A DNA stretch of 64,000 bases from Miltoncostaea marina (GTDB taxonomy: Bacteria > Actinomycetota > Thermoleophilia > Miltoncostaeales > Miltoncostaeaceae). The notes under the pieces were generated by a model. The model saw only the letters and a program-made list of their open reading frames with translations. It was not told where the DNA came from and searched no databases. A program made the position numbers and the translations under genes. Location of the stretch: contig NZ_CP064655.1 in the NCBI RefSeq assembly GCF_018141525.1, positions 434,001 through 498,000 of the forward strand, read 5' to 3'. This document shows, in pieces, positions 14,071-54,917 of the stretch; positions within the stretch are counted from its first letter, which is position 1, and each line of letters opens with the position of its first letter.

Positions 14071-14260
14071 GTTCCGCCTCCGTGACGAGTTCGCCGACGG
14101 GGCGGGATGCCGTCCCGCCCGAGGCGGTCGCGCCCGGCGGCGCTCCGCCTCACGCCACGCGATGGCCGAGTCGGGGCCCGTCCGGACGGAGGGGCGCCGG
14201 CGACCGCCGATGCCGTGCCGGCGCGCCGGACTGCGGCGCGGCGGTGCGGGGCGGCCGGGA

Positions 14261-14303
14261 TGGGCCGTGTCGGGATCGAACCGACGACCTTGGGATTAAA
14301 AGC
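14261..14303 (-). tRNA. tRNA-Lys(TTT) 3' half, probable attachment site remnant
   Basis: Read on the minus strand this is exactly tRNA positions 32-73: anticodon loop CTTTTAA, 3' anticodon stem TCCCA, variable loop AGGTC, T-stem GTCGG with loop TTCGATC and CCGAC, acceptor ACGGCCC and discriminator A. The 5' half (acceptor GGGCCGT, D-arm, 5' anticodon stem) is absent from the following bases. Breakage inside the anticodon loop is typical of tyrosine-integrase crossover sites. It marks the left edge of the plasmid-like element. Confidence 0.85.
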
Positions 14304-14412
14304 AGCCTCGGGTGTTCTCGGTCGGCCTCGGCTCGTCTCGGGAACTACGCTTCATGACGGCGTTCGCGTCGGTCTGCGGCGTCGCCTGTCTCGCGTCGCC
14401 TCGGCCGCTCTC

Positions 14413-14433
14413 GTTGTCACCCTGTTGTCACCC
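14413..14433 (+). repeat. Two tandem GTTGTCACCC repeats upstream of rep
   Basis: GTTGTCACCC occurs at 14413-14422 and again at 14424-14433, an 11-bp period, just before the Rep start at 14444. It could be an operator or iteron pair for the initiator. Confidence 0.5.
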
Positions 14434-14443
14434 CGGCGAGCCG

Positions 14444-15424
14444 ATGAATGCCGCACAGGCGCCGCCCAGGACGGGCGATCCGAGGCTTCGCGAGCTCCTC
14501 GAGCGGGGGCTCGCTCAGGCGCTCGAGCGCGAGGCGGTCACATCGGCGGACACAACAGAAGGTGTCTCGTCGGAGCAGCTGTCCAAGCCTGCTGCCCCCA
14601 GGTCACTCGGACTCGCCTCTGACAGGGCCTGCGTGGAGTCGAACCTGGCCCGCAAGGGTCTCTGGCGCTCGTCCGCCGGCGCCGGCGGAGAGCTGGTGCG
14701 CCTGCTCGACGCCACGGACCAGCTGGGCATGGTCCAGCGGATCGACGCGGGTCCGCCGCTCGGCGCGCTCGCCTTCGACGTGATCGTGTGGATCTGCTCG
14801 CGCTGGCGCGAGATCGGCTGCGCCGACGAGCGCCACGTGCCCTTCACCCTCGAGGCTTTAGCCGCCGACCTCGGCTGGCGAAAGGGCGGTGGCGCTGCCC
14901 TCGAACTCGCCGCCGTACTGGATGCGCTGCGCCAGGCGACCTTCCGCGCACGGGTCTACAACGCCTGTCTACAGGAAACGCGGATCGACACCTTCGGCCT
15001 CATCGACCGGTGGGAGCGCGGTGAGCCGTGCCGGTCGGGTCGGTCTGCCCGGCCTGGCTTTCTCGTCCTGGGCGATTGGCTTCACGACCAGCTCGCCCGC
15101 GATCACGTGACCTACGTCAGCTGGTCCGAGATGCGGGCGCTTCAGGGTGCCACCGCGCGGCGGCTGCTGGTCTATCTGGACGCCGAGCGCTTCACGGGCC
15201 GGCGGTGGTCCCGGCCTGTCGATCCGCCGCTTCTGGCGACGCTCGGGATCACGGCGGCTCAACCACACCACCAGCGGGCCACGTTGCGCCGTGCCGCCAG
15301 CGAGATCACAGGCGCGCCAAATCGCTACGGGCTCGTCGGCATCGAGCCGGGGCGACGCCGCGGCGAGCACCGACTCGTTGCCGAGCGACGGTTGCCGACC
15401 ATGGCGATGAAGCGGGGCGGATGA
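14444..15424 (+). CDS. Plasmid replication initiator-like protein (RepA/TrfA type)
   Basis: 326 residues. The core resembles winged-helix plasmid initiators: GALAFDVIVWICSRWREIGC, a helix with FTLEALAADLGWRKGGG, then VLDALRQATFRARVYNA and RIDTFGLIDRWERG. A second winged half starts at FLVLGDWLHDQLARDHVTYVSWSEMRAL. The C-terminus is basic (GIEPGRRRGEHRLVAERR), fitting DNA contact. The ATG at 14444 follows two tandem 11-bp repeats, and the gene is followed by an iteron- and palindrome-rich region, which supports a replication role. The exact Rep family is not certain. The frame stays open upstream into the tRNA remnant, but nothing there looks coding. Confidence 0.65.
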   Translation: MNAAQAPPRTGDPRLRELLERGLAQALEREAVTSADTTEGVSSEQLSKPAAPRSLGLASDRACVESNLARKGLWRSSAGAGGELVRLLDATDQLGMVQRIDAGPPLGALAFDVIVWICSRWREIGCADERHVPFTLEALAADLGWRKGGGAALELAAVLDALRQATFRARVYNACLQETRIDTFGLIDRWERGEPCRSGRSARPGFLVLGDWLHDQLARDHVTYVSWSEMRALQGATARRLLVYLDAERFTGRRWSRPVDPPLLATLGITAAQPHHQRATLRRAASEITGAPNRYGLVGIEPGRRRGEHRLVAERRLPTMAMKRGG

Positions 15425-15614
15425 CGCGATGGAGCGGGGGAGTCGGCGCGATGACAACGCACGCAATTCACGCTTGCGGGGGCGGCGCAGTCGCTGCGAT
15501 GCGGCAGGGCAGATCGTGCGGCCGAGCCGGGCGGTCCATGCGATGCGACCGGGGCAGGGAGGGCGATGCGCCACGCCGGGAATCGCCTGCAATCGCGAGA
15601 GGAGCCGATGGAGC

Positions 15615-15647
15615 AGTCCGTGATAAGTCCGGGATCAGTCCGGCGCC
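15615..15647 (+). repeat. Three 11-bp iteron-like repeats (AGTCCG...)
   Basis: AGTCCG occurs at 15615, 15626 and 15637, exactly 11 bp apart, as AGTCCGTGATA, AGTCCGGGATC and AGTCCGGCGCC. One helical turn of spacing places all copies on the same DNA face, as in initiator-binding iterons. Confidence 0.6.
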
Positions 15648-15680
15648 GATGCGCGTTCTCGCCGAAAGGCGCTCGTGGCG

Positions 15681-15767
15681 TCCCAGGCCGCTACCCTCGC
15701 GAGTCCGGGCGCTCCGCGCCCGAGGCGACAACGGATGTTGTCGCCTCGCGAGGGTAGCGGCCTGGGA
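15681..15767. repeat. Nested inverted repeat: 23-bp stem enclosing two hairpins (cloverleaf)
   Basis: Arms 15681-15703 and 15745-15767 are perfectly complementary over 23 bases. The 41 bases between them contain a GGGCGC/GCGCCC hairpin (15707-15712 with 15716-15721) and an 11-bp perfect hairpin (15722-15732 with 15737-15747, loop GGAT) that shares three bases with the outer right arm. It could extrude as a cruciform or fold as single-stranded DNA: an origin, a single-strand recombination site, or a regulatory RNA. Confidence 0.85.
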
Positions 15768-15868
15768 GGACGGATCGAACGAGAACCGCTTCATGAAGCC
15801 GTTCTGCTCTCCGGAACGCGTCGAAAAGAATAACTACGACGCAACGCGTCAGTGATACGTTTCGGGCC

Positions 15869-17641
15869 GTGACGAACGCCCACACGCGCCGCCAGGCGGC
15901 CCTCAAGGCGATCGAGCAGGTGCGTGGCGGCACCCAAGCGGGCAGCGTCGAGACCGAGTCGATCGACTTCAAGGAAGAGGCTGGCAGCGTCGGTCGCGAC
16001 GGGGCCCGCCGCCCGATCGATGCCCGGGACGAAGGTGCGGCGCGCGCGCTCGCCGAGGAGGCGGCGTGCCTGGCCAACTCGGATCAGGGAGGGGTCCTGA
16101 TCGTGGGGGTCGATGATCGCGCCGCGGGCGAGGCGGCGTTCGTCGGCGCATACCTCGACACAGCGTGGTTGCGACAGCGGATCTACGCCCTCACCACACC
16201 CGGTCTGGCGGTCGATGAGCCAGAGGAGGTGACGGTCGCGGGCGCCCGGGTCTACCTGGTGAACGTCGCTCCGGCGCTGGAGGAGATCCGCTGTCAGGGG
16301 AAGTTGCGTGCGCGTCTGGGTACCGACTGCGTCGAGCTCACCGGGGACCGCGCGCGCCAGTTCCTCGAGCGGCGGCGCAATTACGACTGGAGCTCAGCGC
16401 CGTCCGGGCTGCGCCTATCGGACGCCTCGCGAGAGGCGCTCTCCTCTGCCCGCCGGCACTTCCGCGACGAGCACGGGGCCGAGGCCCAGGGCGACCTCGC
16501 GGTCGTCCGTCGGCTCGGCGTGGCCATCGATGACGGCGATGATCCGGTCCTCAGCAGGGCGGGCGCCCTGCTGCTCTGCGTCTACGACGACGATGGCGGC
16601 GGACTCGATCTTCAGGTCAAAGTCGGAGAGGGCGCGCCTTCCCAGGCGCGACTCGAGCTGCGAGCCCCCCTCATCGTCGCCTTCGATCGCGCGTGGGCCG
16701 AGCTCGACCGCGTTCTGCCCGCGTCCGCCGAGATCGTCGGGGCCCAGCGCCGGCAGATTCGACCGCTTCCGATGACCGCCATCCGGGAGACGCTCGCCAA
16801 CGCGATCGCCCACCGCGACTATCGGCTCGTCCGCGGCGCGACGGTCATCCTGGCCCTTGGGGAGCCAACGCGCATCCTCAAGGTCACCTCGCCAGGGACA
16901 CTCCCGCCAGGCGTATCGGTCGATCGGTTGATCGCCACTCCGTCCCGACCGCGCAACCCGGCGCTCGCCGGCGCGCTGCGCGCTCTTGGCATCGGGGAGG
17001 GCGAGGGCATCGGGATCGACCGCATGTTCGGCGCGATGCTCCGCGAGGGGCATCCGCCGCCCGAGATCGACGAGGCCGCCGGCGACGTGTCGGTGCGGCT
17101 CTCCGGCGGCCGGTCGGACCCGGTGATCCTTGACCTCTACGACCGGATCTTCAGCCGCGATCCCGCGCTGCAGGAGGACGTGCGCACTCCGATCGCCGTG
17201 AGTCTGCTGCTTGCCGAGACACCGCTGCGCCCGGAGCGGGTGGCCGGGGTCGCCCAGTGCTCGACCGCGGAGGCGCTCGAGGCGCTCGAGGCACTGGAGC
17301 GGGCCGGCGTCATCACTCGCCTGACCAACCGGGCGCGCTCGTTCTCTCTTGCGCCAGACGTTCGCACCGAACTCGGTGCGAGGGTCGCCTATCAGCCGCG
17401 GCGAGCGATCGAGGAGCATTGGCAGCTTGTCCGGGCATACCTCGACTCGCGTCCGGTCATCGGGCGCGAGGACGCCGCGGAGCTGTTGCAGGTCAGCGCG
17501 GTGCGCGCATCGCAGGTACTGAGTGAATTGAGCCGGCGAGGCGACATCGAGCCGGTTGACCGCGCCAGGGGGCGAGGCGTCCGGTACCGACGTGCAGCCT
17601 CAGACGGCTCGGCCGCGCGGCAAGCCGCGGCTCCCAAGTGA
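15869..17641 (+). CDS. Schlafen-like AlbA_2 ATPase with RecG-type HATPase and winged-helix domains
   Basis: 590 residues. The N-terminal AlbA_2 (Slfn) domain has ESIDFKEEAG at residues 30-39 and ACLANSDQGGVLIVGVDDR near 70. A central HATPase_c_4 domain carries AIRETLANAIAHRDY with N311, H315, R316, D317 and Y318, then LKVTSPGTLPPG and the GIGEGEGIGIDRM ATP-lid. The C-terminal third holds two winged-helix segments. Such proteins act as DNA/RNA-binding regulators and in anti-phage systems. The GTG at 15869 has no ribosome site; a GATACG about ten bases upstream may be a -10 box giving a near-leaderless message. Its TGA overlaps the GTG of the next gene. It directly follows the palindrome region. 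Confidence 0.85.
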   Translation: MTNAHTRRQAALKAIEQVRGGTQAGSVETESIDFKEEAGSVGRDGARRPIDARDEGAARALAEEAACLANSDQGGVLIVGVDDRAAGEAAFVGAYLDTAWLRQRIYALTTPGLAVDEPEEVTVAGARVYLVNVAPALEEIRCQGKLRARLGTDCVELTGDRARQFLERRRNYDWSSAPSGLRLSDASREALSSARRHFRDEHGAEAQGDLAVVRRLGVAIDDGDDPVLSRAGALLLCVYDDDGGGLDLQVKVGEGAPSQARLELRAPLIVAFDRAWAELDRVLPASAEIVGAQRRQIRPLPMTAIRETLANAIAHRDYRLVRGATVILALGEPTRILKVTSPGTLPPGVSVDRLIATPSRPRNPALAGALRALGIGEGEGIGIDRMFGAMLREGHPPPEIDEAAGDVSVRLSGGRSDPVILDLYDRIFSRDPALQEDVRTPIAVSLLLAETPLRPERVAGVAQCSTAEALEALEALERAGVITRLTNRARSFSLAPDVRTELGARVAYQPRRAIEEHWQLVRAYLDSRPVIGREDAAELLQVSAVRASQVLSELSRRGDIEPVDRARGRGVRYRRAASDGSAARQAAAPK

Positions 17642-18464: not shown

Positions 18465-19232
18465 CTACCTGCGGATGGCGTCCGCGACCTGGTCGGCGAT
18501 CTCCTCCACGGTGTAGTCGGACGTGCGCAGCGCCACCTTGTCGGCCAGCGACGGGCTGGCAGCCAGCACTTCGGACTTGGAGATGTTGTGCCAGAGGGGC
18601 AGGACCAGCTGGCGCCCGCCATGCATCTCGCGAGCAACCAGCCCGTTCAGTTCGTAGTTCGTCCAGTTCTTCGCGAAGAAGGCCTCCGACAAGACGACGA
18701 TGCCGAACCGGCTGCTCGCGATGCCCCGGTCGATGCTCTGGCGGAGGCTGGAGCCGAGCTTGAGTTCGAAGTCGTCGTACCAGACGTCGAGGTTGCGGGC
18801 GCGCAGAGCATCAGCCAGGGGACGGACGAGGCTGGCCTTGTCTTCTGTGGCATGTGAGATGAAAACGTCGTAGGCGGCTTCGAACCCCTCGCCGTGCGCG
18901 TCGTCGATCGCGTCGGCGATGGAGCCGAGCGCACCGCTGCGCGTGGTCCGTATGGGCGCTGGCTGCGGAGGAAGCACTTGAACGCCCCAGCGTCCGCGCC
19001 ACGGACGTCCGCCGTTCTCAACAACCACGTACCAGCGACCCGAGCGCGGAATCTCGAAGTTGACCGGCGAGCGTGTCGCCCGGCCTCCCTGAGCGCGCCC
19101 GCCCCGGCCAGCCTTGAACGCCGAAAAGGTGCTGGTGTCCATCAACCAGACGTTCGCCGCCTGGCCCGAAAGCGACACCGACGCGATGGCACCCCGTGGC
19201 TGCTGTCCGAGGTCTCTGTAGAGGAACTCCAC
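18465..19232 (-). CDS. DUF1883-TIR domain protein (putative NADase effector)
   Basis: 255 residues. The N-terminal DUF1883 domain covers about 1-95 (VEFLYRDLGQQPRGAIASV, then LSGQAANVWLMDTSTFSAFK and IPRSGRWYVVVENGG). A C-terminal TIR domain starts near residue 125 with YDVFISHATEDKASLVRPLA, then DVWYDDFELKLGSSLRQSID and SRFGIVVLSEAFFAKNWTNY, with the catalytic-type glutamate E194 in TNYELNGL. TIR domains of this class cleave NAD+ in defence and signalling. The GTG at 19232 is chosen because DUF1883 normally begins with M-x-F-L-x-R-D-L; the frame extends 21 codons upstream. It is convergent with the DUF5677-like gene. Confidence 0.85.
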   Translation of the reverse strand: MEFLYRDLGQQPRGAIASVSLSGQAANVWLMDTSTFSAFKAGRGGRAQGGRATRSPVNFEIPRSGRWYVVVENGGRPWRGRWGVQVLPPQPAPIRTTRSGALGSIADAIDDAHGEGFEAAYDVFISHATEDKASLVRPLADALRARNLDVWYDDFELKLGSSLRQSIDRGIASSRFGIVVLSEAFFAKNWTNYELNGLVAREMHGGRQLVLPLWHNISKSEVLAASPSLADKVALRTSDYTVEEIADQVADAIRR

Positions 19233-19414
19233 GACCCAACTATGGGGCACGGGCCGGACGCCAAATGCGCCGCTTTCCTCGGGAAGGGCCGGCACCGGCT
19301 GGGGCGGGCGGCGCTCGGTAGGACGTCGACACTCTGTCTCGTCTCCGGCGCCGAACCGTCACGCACCGAATCCTCGCCGGCGATCTCGAGCCCAGTCCGA
19401 TTACCGTACGAGCT

Positions 19415-20043: not shown

Positions 20044-20133
20044 ATGCGTTTCGACCGTACCAACGGGCGATCGGCTGCGCTCGCGCGCGCCGCTGCGACC
20101 GGCCGGGGAAGTGGGGCCACCGATGCCCGCTGA
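20044..20133 (+). CDS. 29-residue leader peptide overlapping ssb
   Basis: A short frame from ATG 20044, with GGGAGA about six bases upstream, encodes MRFDRTNGRSAALARAAATG and nine more residues (RGSGATDAR). Its TGA at 20131 lies inside the ssb gene, eight bases after the ssb start. The overlap suggests translational coupling. It is preceded by a hairpin-forming leader, so an attenuation role is possible but unproven. Confidence 0.45.
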   Translation: MRFDRTNGRSAALARAAATGRGSGATDAR

Positions 20134-20533
20134 CCTCAACACCGTCGGCCTGGTCGGCCGACTGACCCGCGACCCGGAGCTGCGCTACACCGCGGCCGGT
20201 GAGGCGGTCTGCGGCCTGCGCCTGGCCGTCTCGACCCGGACACGCGCCGACGAGGGCTGGGAGGACCGGCCGAACTTCTTCGATGTCTCGGTGTGGGGCA
20301 AGGGCGGCGAGGCCGCCGCTGAGCACCTCACCAAGGGGCGGCGCATCGGCGTCGCCGGGCGACTCACCTGGCGCGAGTGGACGACCGATGACGGCTCGCG
20401 TCGCGAGGCTGTCCAGATCGTCGCAGCGTCGATCCAGTACCTCGACGCGCCGCGCAAGGACGACGCCGCGCCGGAGCCGGTGGGTGCGCCCAACGGGAAG
20501 GGGGCCGCCAGTGGCGACGACATCCCCTTCTGA
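20123..20533 (+). CDS. ssb: Single-stranded DNA-binding protein
   Basis: 136-residue SSB. The OB-fold shows LNTVGLVGRLTRDPELRYTA near the start, then FFDVSVWGKGGEAAAEHLTKG, RIGVAGRLTWREW and VQIVAASIQYLD. The C-terminal tail is short and ends in the protein-recruiting tip DDIPF. It protects single strands during plasmid replication or conjugation. The ATG at 20123 starts the fold and overlaps the end of the leader peptide. The end overlaps the winged-helix gene by 23 bases. Confidence 0.95.
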   Translation: MPADLNTVGLVGRLTRDPELRYTAAGEAVCGLRLAVSTRTRADEGWEDRPNFFDVSVWGKGGEAAAEHLTKGRRIGVAGRLTWREWTTDDGSRREAVQIVAASIQYLDAPRKDDAAPEPVGAPNGKGAASGDDIPF

Positions 20534-21119: not shown

Positions 21120-21418
21120 ACGGCGTCGACCACCAGGCCGCCGGCCTTCGCGCCACCGTCCGCGCCGCCATCGCGGCGGGCGGCCTCGAGGACACGGTGC
21201 GGGCGGTCCTCGAGCGGCGCTTCCCGGCCGAGGGGCCGGGCGCAAGCCTCGACGAGGCCGGGGCCGCCCTCGGGATGAGCCCGGCGATGGTCGCCCACAT
21301 CGAGTTCGCCGCGCTCTGCGCGATCGCCGCCGGGCGCTCCGGCAGAAGCGCGGCCATCCCGACGAGCAGCCGTGATCCGCATCCCGGGCGCTCGCACACC
21401 GAAGGAGGGGGAGCATGA
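21116..21418 (+). CDS. Small sigma70-region-4-like HTH protein
   Basis: 100 residues. The middle (GASLDEAGAALGMSPAMVAHIEFAALCAIAAG) resembles a sigma-factor region 4/HTH with LDEAGAALGMS as the first helix and turn. The tail is short and basic. It overlaps its neighbours on both sides by four bases (ATGA at 21116 and at 21415), so it is part of the ssb-parB operon. It probably regulates replication or partition. Confidence 0.6.
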   Translation: MNGVDHQAAGLRATVRAAIAAGGLEDTVRAVLERRFPAEGPGASLDEAGAALGMSPAMVAHIEFAALCAIAAGRSGRSAAIPTSSRDPHPGRSHTEGGGA

Positions 21419-22971
21419 CCAGCGACACCGCGCCGACGACCCTCGCGGTGCTGCCCATCGACGCGATCAGCGTCCGCGAGGGCTGGAACCCGCGCAGCGG
21501 CGACGATGAGGTCGAGCACCAGGCGCTCACCGACTCGGTGCGCGCGCAGGGCATCCTGCAGCCGCTCTTGATCGAGCGCACCGACGAGGGCGCGGTCCTG
21601 CTCGACGGGCACCGACGGCTCGCGGCCGCGCGTGCGGCCGGGATCTCCGACGTCCCGGTGATCGAGCGCAGCGGGGAGGACGGCGAGGCGCCCCAGCTCG
21701 CCGCCGCCCTCGCGGCCAACATGCGCCGCCGCGGCCTCGACCCGATCGAGGAGGCGCGCGCCTACGAGCGCGCCGCGAAGGCCGGGTGGCCGCAGCGGCG
21801 GATCGCCGAGGCGGTCGGCTGCTCGCCGCGTCACGTCTCCCAGCGGCTGCGCCTGCTGCGGTTGCCCGACGGCGTTCAGAAGGCGATCGGCGCAGGGGCG
21901 CTGCCGCTCTCGGTCGTGCCCACCGTCGAGACGATCGCCGCCGCCGCGCCCGCCGTCGCCGACGCCCTGGCCGCCGCCCTCGCCACCGGCACGATCACGG
22001 CGGCCGAGGTCAGCGACCATCCCGAGAGCGCGCTCGCCGAGCTCGCGCAGACCGTGAACGACGAGGGGTGCCCGAGGCTCGTCGCGGTTCCCGGCTACCA
22101 GGATCTCGGGGCGCTCGCGCTTCCCGCCGACCTCGCCGCGCGCGCCGAGGCGGCCGGAGTCCACGGCGTCAGCTTCTCCGCCGACGACATGGACGCTGCG
22201 CGTGCCTTCGGTTGCCTGATCGAGTTCACGAGCGGTGAGGATCGCTACTGGCACCGGGGCTTCGTGGCCGACGCCGCCTGGGTGGCGGACCGGGTTGGCC
22301 TGCACATCGAACGGGCCGAGGAGCGGACGCGCGAGGAGGCAGAGCGCAGCGCGACGATGAGCGCCGCGGACGGCCAGGAAGGCCCGGGCGACGCGGACCG
22401 CCCGAGCGAGTCGGAGGAGGAGCGGCGCCGCCGGGAGCGCCAGGAGGCCAAGGAGAACCGGCGCGCCGCCCACCTTGCCAACCTTGACCTCGGACGGCGG
22501 GCGCTGCTCGCCTACGAGGAGCCCGCCGAGATCACGATGCAGATGGCGAAGGCCGTTGTCCTTGTCGCCCTCCATCACCAGGCGCAGGACGCCGCCCAGG
22601 CGCTTCGCCTCACCCACGAGCGTCTGCAACGCACCGAGACGGTGACCACCAAGGCCGGGGCGACGCGCGAGCGGGTCCGGTACCCCGAGCGCCACGAGGC
22701 GGAGGCGGCGCTCGTGGAATGGATCGAGGGTGCGCGAACGCCGGCCCAGCTGATCGGGCGCGCGGTGCAGGCCCTGGTCGGGGCCTTCTACGCCGACCAG
22801 GAGGCCCTGCCGCAGTCCGAGCGGCGCCCGGCCGCCATGCCCGGCCGCTACGGCGGTGGGATCGCGGCCGGGCTCCCAACGGTGATGGACGGCCTCGCGC
22901 GTGAGGTGCTCCCCGAGCGCCTCGCGGCAGGCCTGCGCGAGTCCCCGGACGTCGAGGCGCTCGCCGCGTAG
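21415..22971 (+). CDS. parB: ParB/RepB/Spo0J-family partition protein
   Basis: 518 residues. The N-terminal CTPase/ParB domain shows LPIDAISVREGWNPRSGDD, ALTDSVRAQGILQPLLIER, VLLDGHRRLAAARAAG and LAANMRRRGLDPIEEARAY. The HTH is RRIAEAVGCSPRHVSQRLRLLRLP. A long C-terminal extension follows, including an acidic/arginine coiled region (EEERRRRERQEAKENRR), longer than chromosomal ParB. The GxxRxxA box sits in GHRRLAA. No parA gene is next to it, so partition may use a host or distant ATPase, or the protein may act in replication control. Last gene of the operon; a hairpin follows. Confidence 0.9.
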   Translation: MTSDTAPTTLAVLPIDAISVREGWNPRSGDDEVEHQALTDSVRAQGILQPLLIERTDEGAVLLDGHRRLAAARAAGISDVPVIERSGEDGEAPQLAAALAANMRRRGLDPIEEARAYERAAKAGWPQRRIAEAVGCSPRHVSQRLRLLRLPDGVQKAIGAGALPLSVVPTVETIAAAAPAVADALAAALATGTITAAEVSDHPESALAELAQTVNDEGCPRLVAVPGYQDLGALALPADLAARAEAAGVHGVSFSADDMDAARAFGCLIEFTSGEDRYWHRGFVADAAWVADRVGLHIERAEERTREEAERSATMSAADGQEGPGDADRPSESEEERRRRERQEAKENRRAAHLANLDLGRRALLAYEEPAEITMQMAKAVVLVALHHQAQDAAQALRLTHERLQRTETVTTKAGATRERVRYPERHEAEAALVEWIEGARTPAQLIGRAVQALVGAFYADQEALPQSERRPAAMPGRYGGGIAAGLPTVMDGLAREVLPERLAAGLRESPDVEALAA

Positions 22972-23299: not shown

Positions 23300-25909
23300 G
23301 TGTTGACGATACGAGCTGCCAAGGGAGCCGACTACTACGAGCGCGCCGAGTTCGCGCGCGACGACTACTACGCCGAGCGCGGGCAGGTGCGCGGGACGTG
23401 GGAGGGACGCGGCGCCGAAGCGCTCGGCCTCACCGACGCACCGGGGGACGGCGCGCTGGGCGCGCTCCTCGAGGGACGCGATCCCGCGAGCGGCGAGGAC
23501 CTGCCCGGGCGGCGCAACCGCCGCGGAGGCAACGTCGCCTTCGATCTGACGTTCGCCGCCCCCAAGGGGCTGAGCGTGCTCGCCGCGGTCGGCGACGAGG
23601 CCGTGCGGGCGGCCATCCTCTCCGCGTACGCCGAGGGGGTGCGCGCGGCGCTCGACTACCTCGAGCGGCGAGCCTGCTTCGTGCGGCGCGGCCACAACGG
23701 CGTGAGGGTCCTTCGCGCTGAGGGTTTCGTGGGCGCCATGTACCTGCACGAGATGGCCCGCTCCGGCGATCCGCACCTGCACGCGCACCTGGTGCTCGCC
23801 AACCGGGTGCGCGGCGAGGACGGCCGCTGGACCGCCCCGGACATGAGGCCGGTGTTCGCCGAGGCCAAGACCGCAGGCTTCATCGCCGAGGCGGTGGCCC
23901 GCGCGCGCCTCAGCGAGACGCTCGGCCTTGAGTGGGAGCAGACCGCCAACGGCTCGATTGACCTCGTGGCGATGCCCGCGTCGGTGCGCGAGCACTTCTC
24001 GTCCCGCCACGCGGAGATCGTCGAGCTGGCACACGCGCGCGGCTACACCGGGGCGTCGGCGATCGAGGCGATCCAACGTGAGACCCGCGACCGCAAGCGC
24101 GTCGTCTCCCGTGAACGGGCGGCGGCCGAGTGGCGCGCGCGGGCGGCCGAGCACGGGTTCGGTGCCCGCGAGGTGGCGCGGGCGACCGGCGCGGCGCGGT
24201 CGCGCTCGCGGACGGCGTACGTCGAGGGTCTGCGCGAATGCCGGCGCCGGATGGAGAGCCCCGCCGGGCTCACCCAACGGGCGTCATCGTTCACCCGCCG
24301 CGAGGTGATCCAGGATCTCGCCGACGCCCACCCAGAGGGCATCGGCGCGCACGCCCTCGAGCGCCTCGCCGACGACTTCCTCGCGGCACGCTGTGTGCCC
24401 CTCGCGCCGGCGGGTGCGGCGCCTGGGCGCGGTTACGAGGAGGCGCGCTACACGACCCCCGACATGCTCGACGTCGAGACCCGGCTGATCGACACGGCGT
24501 GCGCGGCGCCGATCGACCCACGGCTGGCGAGTCCCCTTCAGGTCGAGCGTGCGATCGGCGCCAGGCGCTCGCTCGGCGATGACCAGGCGGCAGCCGTCCG
24601 CCATCTGTGCTCCGGCGAGGCGCGCACGCGGCTGATGGAGGCGCGTGCGGGCTCGGGAAAGACGTTCGCCCTGGAGGCGGTGCGGGAGGCCTATGAGTCG
24701 TCGGGCGTCGCGGTGGTGGGAACCGCCTGGCAGGCCCAGGCGGCCGAGGTGCTGCAGCGCGACGCCGGCATCGCCTCCGAGACGACGGCGCTCATCCTGG
24801 AGCGCGCAGCGCGCGGCCAGGACGCGATTCCCGGGGGCGCGGTCGTCGTCTGTGACGAGGCCTCCACCATGCCGACGCGCGCCCTCGAGCGACTCGTCCA
24901 GGTGGTCGCTTCGCGCGGTGGCCGACTGATCCTCGTTGGCGACAGGGCGCAGCTGCCACCGGTCGACGCCGGCGGCGGCTTCGCCGCCCTCTGCGACCGG
25001 CTCGGCTCGGTCGAGCTCACCGAGAACCGTCGCCAGCGCACCGAGCTGCAAAGAGCCGTGGCCGAGCGGCTCGCCGAGGGGCGCGCCGGCGATGCGATCT
25101 CGCTCCTCGCGGAAAACGGCCGCCTGCGGACGTTCGAGGACGGCGCCGACGCCCGGCGCGCCCTGATCCGCTCCTGGGCGCAGACATCGCTTGCGGATCC
25201 CGCTGACGCCGTGATCCTCGCCCACGACCGACGCGAGGTGCGTCTGCTGAACGAGATGGCCCGGGCCGAGCTCGACCGCGCCGGACGGCTGTCGGACCGC
25301 CGCCTCGTGGCGGAGGGGCGGGAGTGGGCGATCGGCGATCGCCTGCTCTGCCGGCGCAACGACTACCGGCTCGACGTGCGCAACGGCACCCGCGGCGTCG
25401 TCGTCGGACTCGACGAGAACGAGCGGGCGCTCACGCTCTGGACCGACGATGGGCGCGAGGTCGTCCTTCCCGCCGTCTACCTGCGTCACGCCGAGCGTGG
25501 ATACGCGATGACCGGACACGTCAGCCAGGGCACGACCGTGGACCGCACCTACCTGCTCGCGACGCCCGAGAGGGGCGGCACGGAATGGGCGTACGTCGCG
25601 GGCTCACGCCAGCGGATCGATCTCGAGGTCTACGCGATCCACCCAGACCCCGAGACCCTCGCTGTCGCCCTTGAGCGCGCGTGGTCGCGGACGCAGGCGA
25701 AGGGACTCGCAATCGACATCGTCGCAGCGGGCGATCGCGGTATCGAGGAAACGGAGTCGGCCAGAGGACTCACCCACGGTCCGTCCGCGGGGTCGAAGCC
25801 GGATGTCAGTGCAGGACGAGCGTTGTCCGATCCGGATCTACGGTTGGCCGAGTCGCCCCGGCCGCACCCGCCGCCCGTGCCTGAGCGTGGGCTTGGTCGG
25901 GATCTCTAA
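23300..25909 (+). CDS. MobF (TrwC-type) conjugative relaxase-helicase
   Basis: 869 residues. The N-terminal TrwC relaxase domain starts LTIRAAKGADYYERAEF, with the catalytic tyrosine candidates Y12/Y13 and Y23/Y24. It has the three-histidine metal site in GDPHLHAHLVLANRV near residues 155-169. A RecD/TraA-like helicase follows, with Walker A ARAGSGKTFALEAV near 450, Walker B VVVCDEASTMPTRAL near 513, a GDRAQLPPV motif, and motif VI-like GHVSQGTTVDRTYLLA near 740. It nicks oriT and unwinds the transferred strand. The GTG at 23300 and TTG at 23303 are both possible starts. No coupling protein or secretion genes are present, so the element is probably mobilised with help. Confidence 0.92.
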   Translation: MLTIRAAKGADYYERAEFARDDYYAERGQVRGTWEGRGAEALGLTDAPGDGALGALLEGRDPASGEDLPGRRNRRGGNVAFDLTFAAPKGLSVLAAVGDEAVRAAILSAYAEGVRAALDYLERRACFVRRGHNGVRVLRAEGFVGAMYLHEMARSGDPHLHAHLVLANRVRGEDGRWTAPDMRPVFAEAKTAGFIAEAVARARLSETLGLEWEQTANGSIDLVAMPASVREHFSSRHAEIVELAHARGYTGASAIEAIQRETRDRKRVVSRERAAAEWRARAAEHGFGAREVARATGAARSRSRTAYVEGLRECRRRMESPAGLTQRASSFTRREVIQDLADAHPEGIGAHALERLADDFLAARCVPLAPAGAAPGRGYEEARYTTPDMLDVETRLIDTACAAPIDPRLASPLQVERAIGARRSLGDDQAAAVRHLCSGEARTRLMEARAGSGKTFALEAVREAYESSGVAVVGTAWQAQAAEVLQRDAGIASETTALILERAARGQDAIPGGAVVVCDEASTMPTRALERLVQVVASRGGRLILVGDRAQLPPVDAGGGFAALCDRLGSVELTENRRQRTELQRAVAERLAEGRAGDAISLLAENGRLRTFEDGADARRALIRSWAQTSLADPADAVILAHDRREVRLLNEMARAELDRAGRLSDRRLVAEGREWAIGDRLLCRRNDYRLDVRNGTRGVVVGLDENERALTLWTDDGREVVLPAVYLRHAERGYAMTGHVSQGTTVDRTYLLATPERGGTEWAYVAGSRQRIDLEVYAIHPDPETLAVALERAWSRTQAKGLAIDIVAAGDRGIEETESARGLTHGPSAGSKPDVSAGRALSDPDLRLAESPRPHPPPVPERGLGRDL

Positions 25910-52556: not shown

Positions 52557-52757
52557 GGCGAGGCCGCCGGCTGGCGACAAACGACTGAATTGCCCTCATT
52601 CGGGCACTCACATGGAGCGATCCCGAGCCCGACAGGTACGGTGGATGAGGGCCAGCAGGAACGCAACCAGGCGAGAGGCCGGAGTGTTCGAGGAGCGTCA
52701 ACAGTGACGATCGCGAACGCATCCCGCTGCCGATGCCAACGAGCCGAGGAGGACGCC

Positions 52758-54917
52758 GTGACAGGCGATGACGCCCACCACGCCGGTCATGCAGAGGACG
52801 GGGGTCACGAGGGCGCGCGCCATCAGGCGGGCGGGGTGGCCGTAGCGGATCGCAGCGGGCACGGCCGCTCGGAGGGTGCCGACGACTCCGGTCACGGCGG
52901 GCACGGAAAGCACGCAGGTCATGACGTGGCGATGTTCCGTCGCAGGTTCTGGTGGAGCCTGCTGCTCAGCATCCCGGTCGTCTTCACCAGCCACATGGTC
53001 ATGGACTGGTTCGGCTACGAGTGGGACTTCGCCGGCATCGACCTGATCGGCCCGGTGCTCGGCTCGGTGATCTTCTGGTGGGGCGGCTGGCCCTTCCTCG
53101 AGGGCGGCTGGCGCGAGGCCAAGGAGCGCCAGCCAGGGATGATGCTGCTGATCGCCATGGCGATCAGCGTCGCGTACATCGCCTCCATGGCCACCTCGCT
53201 GGACCTGTTCGACCTCGACTTCTGGTGGGAGCTGGCCCTGCTGGTCACGATCATGCTGCTGGGGCACTGGCAGGAGATGAAGGCGCTCGGCCAGGCCCAG
53301 GACGCGCTCGCCGCGCTCGCCGCCATGCTGCCCGACGAGGCCGAGCGGATCGGCCCGGACGGCGAGGTAGAGACCGTCGCCCTCGACCAGCTCCGCGTCG
53401 GCGACGTCGTCCTGGTGCGCAGCGGAGCCCGCGTGCCCGCCGACGGCGAAATCGTCGACGGCGCCGCGGAGCTCGACGAGTCGATGATCACCGGCGAGTC
53501 CAAGCCGGTCGCCAAGGCGGCCGGCGACCGGGTGGTCGCCGGGACGGTCTCGACCGATTCGGCGATCCGCGTGCGCGTCGAGGCGATCGGCGAGGAAACC
53601 ACGCTCGCCGGCATCCAGCGGCTGGTGGCGCAGGCCCAGGAGTCCAAGTCCCGCGCCCAGGTGCTGGCCGACCGCGCCGCCGCGCTGCTGTTCTACGTCG
53701 CCATGGCCGCCGCGGTGATCGCCGCCGTCGTGTGGCTGGCGGTCGGCGACGCCGACGACGCGGTCGTGCGGGTGGTCACCGTGCTCGTGATCTCGTGCCC
53801 CCACGCGCTCGGCCTGGCGATCCCGTTGACGACCTCGATCTCCTCGGCGCGCGCGGCGAGCAACGGCATCCTGGTGAAGGACCGCCTCGCGCTCGAGCAG
53901 AGCCGCACGGTGGACGCCATCCTGTTCGACAAGACCGGAACCCTGACGAAGGGCGAGCACCTCGTCGTCGGCGTCGCCGGCGCCGGCATCGATGAGGACG
54001 AGGTGCTGCGCCTGGCGGGCGGTGTCGAGTCCGACAGCGAGCACCCGCTCGCCCGCGCGATCGTCGACGCCGCTCGCGAGCGCGGCCCGGTAGCGGCGGC
54101 CGCGGAGTTCCGCTCGATCACCGGCCGCGGGGTCGAGGCCGACATCGACGGCGTCCCGTATGCCGTGGGTGGGCCCGCCCTGCTGCGCGAGCGCTCCCTG
54201 GACGAACCGGCGGAGCTCGACGCGTGGTCGCAGGGCTGGAAGGACCGGGGGGCGGCGGTGCTGTACCTCGTGCGCGGCCGCGACATCATCGGGGGGCTCG
54301 CGCTCGAGGACGAGGTCCGCCCCGAGGCGCGGGCCGCGGTCGCCGAACTCCAGGCGATGGGGCGCCGGGTCGTCATGATCACCGGGGACGCCCGCCAGGT
54401 GGCCGACGCGGTCGGCGCCGACCTGGGCCTGGACGAGGTGTTCGCGGAAGTGCTGCCGGAGGACAAGGCCGCCAAGGTCGCCGAACTCCAGGCCCGGGGG
54501 CTGAGCGTCGCGATGGTGGGCGACGGCGTCAACGACGCGCCGGCACTGGCGAGCGCCGATGTGGGCATCGCGATCGGCGCCGGTACCGACGTCGCGATCG
54601 AGTCCGCCGGCCTGATCCTCGGGAGCTCAGACCCGCGCGCGGTGGTGAGCGCCATCAGGCTCTCCGCGGCCGCGTACCGCAAGAGCCTCCAGAACCTGTG
54701 GTGGGCGGCCGGGTACAACATCGTGGCGATCCCGATCGCCGCCGGCGCCCTCGAGTGGGCCGGCGTCTCGATGCCCCCCGCCGTCGCGGCGATCCTGATG
54801 AGCGTCTCGACGATCGTCGTCGCCCTGAACGCCCAGCTCCTTCGCCGCGTCGATCTGCGACCCGCGCCGATCGAAGACGCCCCCCCGGCGCGGCCGGAGC
54901 CCGTGCCGGCGACGTGA
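52758..54917 (+). CDS. CopB-type heavy-metal P1B-ATPase
   Basis: 719 residues. A histidine-rich N-terminus (GDDAHHAGHAEDGGHEGARH, then HGGHGKHAGHD) replaces the usual cysteine-type MBD. Then come membrane helices, the actuator domain (VPADGEIVDGAAELDESMITGES), the membrane metal motif C347-P348-H349 in SCPHALGLAIPL, the phosphorylated D391 in FDKTGTL, and the HP and GDGVNDAPAL motifs. CPH is the P1B-3 (CopB) type, exporting copper or silver. The GTG at 52758 has GAGGAGGA and starts just before the histidine-rich part; the frame is open 56 codons upstream. Confidence 0.93.
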   Translation: MTGDDAHHAGHAEDGGHEGARHQAGGVAVADRSGHGRSEGADDSGHGGHGKHAGHDVAMFRRRFWWSLLLSIPVVFTSHMVMDWFGYEWDFAGIDLIGPVLGSVIFWWGGWPFLEGGWREAKERQPGMMLLIAMAISVAYIASMATSLDLFDLDFWWELALLVTIMLLGHWQEMKALGQAQDALAALAAMLPDEAERIGPDGEVETVALDQLRVGDVVLVRSGARVPADGEIVDGAAELDESMITGESKPVAKAAGDRVVAGTVSTDSAIRVRVEAIGEETTLAGIQRLVAQAQESKSRAQVLADRAAALLFYVAMAAAVIAAVVWLAVGDADDAVVRVVTVLVISCPHALGLAIPLTTSISSARAASNGILVKDRLALEQSRTVDAILFDKTGTLTKGEHLVVGVAGAGIDEDEVLRLAGGVESDSEHPLARAIVDAARERGPVAAAAEFRSITGRGVEADIDGVPYAVGGPALLRERSLDEPAELDAWSQGWKDRGAAVLYLVRGRDIIGGLALEDEVRPEARAAVAELQAMGRRVVMITGDARQVADAVGADLGLDEVFAEVLPEDKAAKVAELQARGLSVAMVGDGVNDAPALASADVGIAIGAGTDVAIESAGLILGSSDPRAVVSAIRLSAAAYRKSLQNLWWAAGYNIVAIPIAAGALEWAGVSMPPAVAAILMSVSTIVVALNAQLLRRVDLRPAPIEDAPPARPEPVPAT

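Follow-up and report, generated by a model that had tools for sequence, protein, structure and literature searches.

Between the stop codon of a Rep-like open reading frame (15424) and the GTG at which the following gene starts (15869), the chromosome of Miltoncostaea marina contains a gene-free interval, which raises the question whether this DNA is an origin of replication and, if so, to which replicon it belongs. The window analysed comprised 64,000 nucleotides, bases 434001-498000 of the chromosome, which is a single contig of 3.37 Mb; positions are those of the window unless stated otherwise (Table 1). The initial annotation had described a plasmid origin made up of AGTCCG iterons, CGATGCG copies, a cloverleaf, an imperfect palindrome and an AT-rich stretch next to a Rep-like gene. 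AGTCCG was found at 15615, 15626 and 15637, in 11-bp steps, and a fourth time at 15702 within the hairpin. The four CGATGCG copies were located at 15497, 15541, 15564 and 15647. Repeats of AACGCGTC at 15815 and 15843 enclosed the AT-richest patch of the region (55% AT at 15821-15860, 52% in the best 50-mer, local mean 30%). When the region was shuffled with its dinucleotides preserved, none of 2000 shuffles contained at least three AGTCCG, at least four CGATGCG or an 11-bp triple.

Table 1. Positions of the features in and around the interval (window coordinates).
Feature	Position	Strand	Evidence or remarks
tRNA-Lys(TTT) 3' half, att fragment at element end	14259-14302	-	100% match to complete tRNA-Lys gene, chromosome 2835825-2835900
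Paired GTTGTCAC repeats, 11-bp spacing, likely integrase arm sites	14413-14432	+	GTGACAAC pair beside integrase at chromosome 2835972-2835991
rep, 326-aa replication initiator, divergent RPA (PF10134) relative	14444-15424	+	tblastn, PF10134 on homologues, hhalign
Iterons 1-2	15411-15434, 15433-15456	+	Matrix 4.0 and 8.3 bits; overlap rep stop codon
Array gap, probable decayed iteron	15457-15480	+	48-bp step; 50-bp in L008; L027 keeps 24-bp repeat there
Iterons 3-6	15481-15504, 15503-15526, 15525-15548, 15548-15571	+	Matrix 9.2, 13.3, 16.5 and 7.7 bits; steps 22, 22, 23
Spacer, last iteron to triple	15572-15613		Fixed length, sequence poorly conserved
Triple CAGTCCG/AGTCCG/CAGTCCG, likely DNA unwinding element	15614-15642	+	Kept in five loci; locally least stable DNA
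Perfect 23-bp inverted repeat with two inner hairpins (cloverleaf), terminator-like	15681-15767		Arms 15681-15703/15745-15767
Imperfect palindrome and AT-rich putative promoter/operator of AlbA_2 gene	15782-15868	+	Kept in L008, absent from loci without the gene
SLFN_AlbA_2/HATPase_c_4 protein, probable regulator, accessory to window/L008 branch	15869-17641	+	PF04326 1.5e-8, PF13749 2.4e-14
SSB of the element	20111-20533	+	PF00436 2e-28; 89% identical in M. oceani element
ParB partition protein	21415-22971	+	PF02195/PF17762; TIGR00180 3.5e-26; 81% in M. oceani element
MobF (TrwC) relaxase-helicase	23300-25909	+	PF08751 7.8e-70; NF041492 above cut-off; 88.5% in M. oceani element

The Rep-like gene was confirmed as the neighbour of the interval. 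Its product matched the 'replication initiator protein A' of an M. oceani plasmid by tblastn (6e-17), and a relative matched plasmid RPA proteins, including those from Arsenophonus. PF10134 was found in 4 of 11 aligned members (best 1e-6), and hhalign of the Rep profile against the plasmid RPA profile gave 97% and 2.7e-10 over 155 columns. The window Rep itself had no match in Pfam or NCBIfam, PDB searches with its sequence or profile gave no real match, and no homologue was detected in viral contigs. Two winged-helix domains, as in RepE/TrfA, characterize the RPA family. An AF2 model built from two input sequences was poor (pLDDT 43.6; 47.4 for the C-terminal part alone); with this weak model the first 38 Foldseek matches were all RepE-type initiators, at E values of at least 0.068. 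By tblastn, the Pfam matches of homologues and profile comparison, the window Rep is a divergent relative of the RPA family. Its gene had a dN/dS of about 0.18 against L008 and is, by this ratio, under purifying selection. The profile of this ICE-type Rep matched only Miltoncostaeales: at E<=1e-30 it detected 5 of the order's 42 genomes, the weaker matches belonging to sister types, and at E<=1e-8 it detected no other order in a phylum sample of 396. A sister RPA clade, which includes the free M. oceani plasmid, carries different iteron arrays, upstream of rep.

Five loci were compared: the window, a MAG contig (L008), the M. oceani chromosome (L024) and two contigs of G134 (L026 and L027). 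Comparison with the relatives revealed an array that the first reading had overlooked. It consists of six copies of the unit ACCNGGGCAGTNNNTGCGAT, 22-24 bp long and all on the plus strand, spanning 15411-15571; it begins across the rep stop codon and includes three of the four CGATGCG copies (15497, 15541 and 15564) as the right ends of three iterons. The fourth copy falls outside the array and was rejected as an iteron. The AGTCCG units, previously taken for the iterons, do occur three times in 11-bp steps, but the true iterons are the 22-bp units and AGTCCG looks like part of an unwinding element. A matrix trained on eleven G134 units only was used to scan both strands of the 64 kb. It recovered all six window iterons, which made up four of the five best and six of the ten best matches, and found no second array elsewhere in the window. 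The core GCAGTNNNTGCGAT occurs once in the 3.37-Mb chromosome. The window iterons were the most degenerate of the five loci, with 4-16 bits versus 25-35 in G134, the training source of the matrix. No tandem iteron was found in viral contigs, and a plasmid collection gave only chance-level matches to iteron arrays. One match in Methylobacterium was discarded, as no rep gene lay beside it. A further apparent match of the region in the genome (L002) was likewise dismissed, since here the hairpin matches its own reverse complement.

The spacing of the array was nearly constant. Relative to the triple, units started at -127/-105/-83/-60 in the window, L008 and L027 and at -126/-104/-82/-59 in L026; L024 had -126/-82/-59, the second unit (-105/-104) being missing. 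The distance from the last iteron core to the triple was 59-60 bp in all five loci, whereas the 42 bp preceding the triple shared only 31-50% identity. The remaining distances varied (upstream steps 22-60, hairpin offset 30-66) and served as an internal control for the fixed geometry. As the five loci share ancestry, they do not represent five independent events. Phased direct repeats were thus found beside their cognate rep and kept in relatives with a fixed geometry, and for this reason an iteron-type oriV is well supported. The absence of the iterons from relatives had been named as a result that would refute an origin; the check was made, and the origin reading withstood it.

The triple, CAGTCCG-AGTCCG-CAGTC, was common to the five loci, with CGTC as the last unit in L027. 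The best 40-mer at the triple had a duplex stability percentile of 3.3 in the window, 1.5 in L008, 6.4 in L024, 0.1 in L026 and 0.8 in L027, values that are slightly generous owing to the +-8-bp search. An adjacent region of low stability with short repeats, as in theta origins, was therefore present in five of five loci; with few stretches of any locus less stable, the triple is the likelier unwinding element, at an absolute AT content of only 38-48%. The unwinding elements of E. coli oriC and RK2 contain three and four 13-mers, respectively, and TrfA and RepE bind a single strand of the element (PMC4081077). By analogy with these repeats, the CAGTCCG triple is likely the unwinding element. 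No DnaA box was found in the five loci with <=1 mismatch to TTGTCCACA/TTATCCACA, more diverged boxes lying outside this threshold; the claim is therefore limited to a locus that works like an iteron-type theta origin. More speculative, and on balance doubtful, is the proposal that in the Miltoncostaeales ICE family an iteron initiator melts a GC-containing element, built of three 10-11-bp CAGTCCG repeats and kept at a constant distance of 60 bp, with neither DnaA boxes nor an AT-rich stretch, as a DnaA-independent mode of opening in high-GC hosts.

The other parts of the interval behaved differently. The cloverleaf is present as described (RNA fold z = -9.8), and its outer stem persists in L008, where two pair changes are compensated and the loop is a different one (41 versus 23 nt). 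The cloverleaf, the imperfect palindrome (15782-15805) and the AT patch were confined to the window and L008, where they are followed by an AlbA_2/HATPase gene; L024, L026 and L027 had the iterons and the triple and lacked this gene after the origin. All three had been counted as parts of the origin. They exist as described, but they are missing from three of the five origins and accompany the downstream gene, so that the cloverleaf, with its unconserved loop, was rejected as a part of oriV and the AT patch as an unwinding element. In every locus the triple was followed by a GC hairpin, unrelated in sequence, which began 66 nt from the triple start in the window and L008 and about 30 nt from it in L024, L026 and L027. 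The simplest reading is therefore a terminator-like role behind rep, and the hairpin at 15681-15767 probably ends rep transcription. Scanning the window against Rfam and for tRNAs returned nothing. The AT patch ends in TACGTT, 7 nt before the GTG, and among homologues of the AlbA_2 protein, AT-rich palindromic promoters occur at the gene starts; the patch reads best as the promoter of the AlbA_2/HATPase gene.

The replicon was identified from the surroundings of rep. The tRNA-Lys fragment adjoins rep also in L008 and M. oceani, while rep lies beside tRNA-Arg and tRNA-Met fragments in L026 and L027 (anticodons read by eye), so that tRNA 3' fragments abut all five rep/ori units. Since rep stands beside the tRNA fragments of several elements, rep-oriV appears to be a module at the att end of an ICE family. 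Arm-like pairs analogous to GTTGTCAC precede rep in other elements. Short repeats of the NTCTCGG type, spaced about 10 bp apart, were also seen between the att core and rep (window 14300-14345, L008 1155-1200) and are possibly recombinase sites. L008 (JALHRF010000221.1) is labelled as a Bauldia sp. MAG and carries a Miltoncostaeales-type ICE end; it is probably mis-binned.

In M. oceani the element is intact, with tRNA-Lys and its fragment 47.8 kb apart and bracketing rep, SSB, ParB, TrwC relaxase, VirD4 and integrase. It thus has the integrase, relaxase, coupling protein, VirB4 and att sites of a T4SS-type ICE, the VirB4-like match being weak. The element carries SSB, ParB, MobF relaxase, VirD4/VirB4-like proteins and an integrase, and in M. 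marina it lies inside the single 3.37-Mb contig and not on a separate circular replicon. Its two att ends are not at one site: the tRNA-Lys fragment is at 448.3 kb of the chromosome and the intact tRNA-Lys with its integrase at 2835.8 kb, and the window copy is therefore a rearranged ICE. The left end, marked by the tRNA-Lys fragment, is coupled with a right end that carries a different integrase at tRNA-Ser (527.4 kb), and the partner of tRNA-Lys and its own integrase is a tRNA-Ser fragment at 2905.6 kb. Conjugation genes form a 7.47-kb inverted repeat, 93.6% identical, that links the two. An inversion of about 2.4 Mb between two ICEs through this repeat of about 7.5 kb would explain the exchanged ends, and the rearranged window element may no longer be able to excise. 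As judged from gene content and att sequences, the host replicon of the origin is a chromosomally integrated ICE at a tRNA, rearranged in this genome. The proposed plasmid origin therefore holds as an iteron-type oriV beside a Rep gene, but not as that of a plasmid.

The two chimeric ICEs with swapped tRNA-Lys/tRNA-Ser ends extend from 14259 to about 93300 in window numbering (448.3-527.5 kb) and over 2835.8-2905.6 kb. A DUF1883 plus TIR protein at 18465-19295 (minus strand; PADLOC candidate PDC-S66, 6e-69; ThsB-like TIR) is likely an ICE-borne defence gene. Genes resembling type I restriction-modification systems were noted by eye in both chimeras (window 62393-64849, chromosome 2899730-2904082). 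Metal-handling cargo includes P-type ATPases (window 52590-54917; by eye L006:1235-4225, L006:5196-7505 and L007:707-2689) and a cysteine-rich four-helix-like protein (L006:7570-8088, by eye).

Taken with the conserved geometry, these findings make it very probable that an integrative and conjugative element has its vegetative origin (oriV) at 15411-15642, where it would serve Rep-driven, plasmid-like replication after excision. In the proposed sequence of events, the integrase would excise the element at the tRNA-Lys att site and the RPA-type Rep would bind the phased 22-bp iterons. The fixed spacer of about 60 bp would bend, perhaps aided by an HU-like protein, and thereby allow Rep to contact the CAGTCCG triple as well, melt it and load the host replisome. 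The excised circle would then replicate as a low-copy theta plasmid, the copies of which would be partitioned by ParB.

The array might instead be a Rep-binding control locus, acting in incompatibility or handcuffing, or a once-functional origin that is decaying in the chromosome. The degeneracy of the window iterons, one of which is missing, would suit such a reading, as would the large inversion that separates the ends of the element and so blocks simple excision. An intact rep under purifying selection, the preserved 22/22/23/60 geometry and the lack of a second array within the window speak against it, however; we regard both variants as improbable. It is far harder to credit that the repeats serve recombination or transfer, as integrase/excisionase arm sites or as oriT. 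Although the att fragment is about 1.1 kb away from them and the ICE encodes a MobF relaxase, separate arm-like pairs are already present between att and rep, the relaxase is 8 kb distant, and iterons and triple stay behind rep across differing att sites (Lys, Arg and Met fragments).

Equally remote is the view that the entire interval serves the AlbA_2/HATPase gene as operator/promoter and that the Rep-like homology is incidental. It draws on the co-occurrence of hairpin, palindrome and AT patch with that gene, but for 15411-15642 it is contradicted by the three loci that have iterons and triple and no such gene after the origin. An operator/promoter is the favoured reading of 15782-15868 only, and the oriV assignment is retained for the array and the triple.

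Among known systems, SGI1 is close in arrangement, being an integrated mobile element with its own rep and a proven iteron oriV directly downstream of it, which is active after excision (PMC7433901). SGI1 is a mobilizable island in trmE with RepA_C, four 17-bp iterons, a DnaA box and AT-rich regions (PMC7433901), whereas the window element has an RPA-like Rep, 22-bp iterons, a weak-duplex triple, self-transfer genes and a tRNA att site, and no DnaA box was found at <=1 mismatch. Plasmid pPDL2 of Sphingobium likewise combines a RepA having RPA and Rep-3 domains with iterons, an integrase and a tRNA-type attP, but it is a free mobilizable alphaproteobacterial plasmid with oriV upstream of repA, an AT-rich sequence and a DnaA box (PMC3516476); in the window the iterons are downstream of rep and differ in sequence. 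In RK2 oriV/TrfA and F oriS/RepE, too, initiator sites arranged as direct repeats occupy one side and a weak duplex with short repeats the other; their Reps bind both the direct and the unwinding repeats, and the looping model leaves space for HU (PMC4081077, PMC10797057). AT-rich unwinding elements with repeats of the 13-mer type, close to DnaA boxes, distinguish them from the window, which has three 10-11-bp GC-containing repeats. The geometry of 22-bp iterons, 60-bp spacer and triple, kept in five loci despite spacer divergence, would make the looping model testable in a GC-rich setting. The M. oceani plasmid NZ_CP064358.1 has an iteron array and a 31% identical Rep annotated as replication initiator protein A, but is a free 46.6-kb plasmid with iterons of the type GCGAGTCGNNTACCCCGG upstream of rep.

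AICEs, too, are integrating and self-replicating elements of Actinomycetota, but they use RepSA, RepAM or Prim-Pol proteins and FtsK-type transfer (PMC3218068); the window element, with its RPA-like Rep, TrwC relaxase and T4SS coupling protein, is not one of them. T4SS ICEs of Actinomycetota have generally been assumed to lack autonomous replication, and a survey with PF10134 and other initiator profiles gained just one extra ICE (Rep2) (PMC3218068). The present locus would add an RPA-type iteron replicon to these T4SS ICEs, supports a blurred boundary between ICEs and plasmids, and may offer a replicon for Miltoncostaeales vectors. Iteron origins in integrated elements are already known from SGI1 and pPDL2, and the module of the Miltoncostaeales ICEs is a variant of these.
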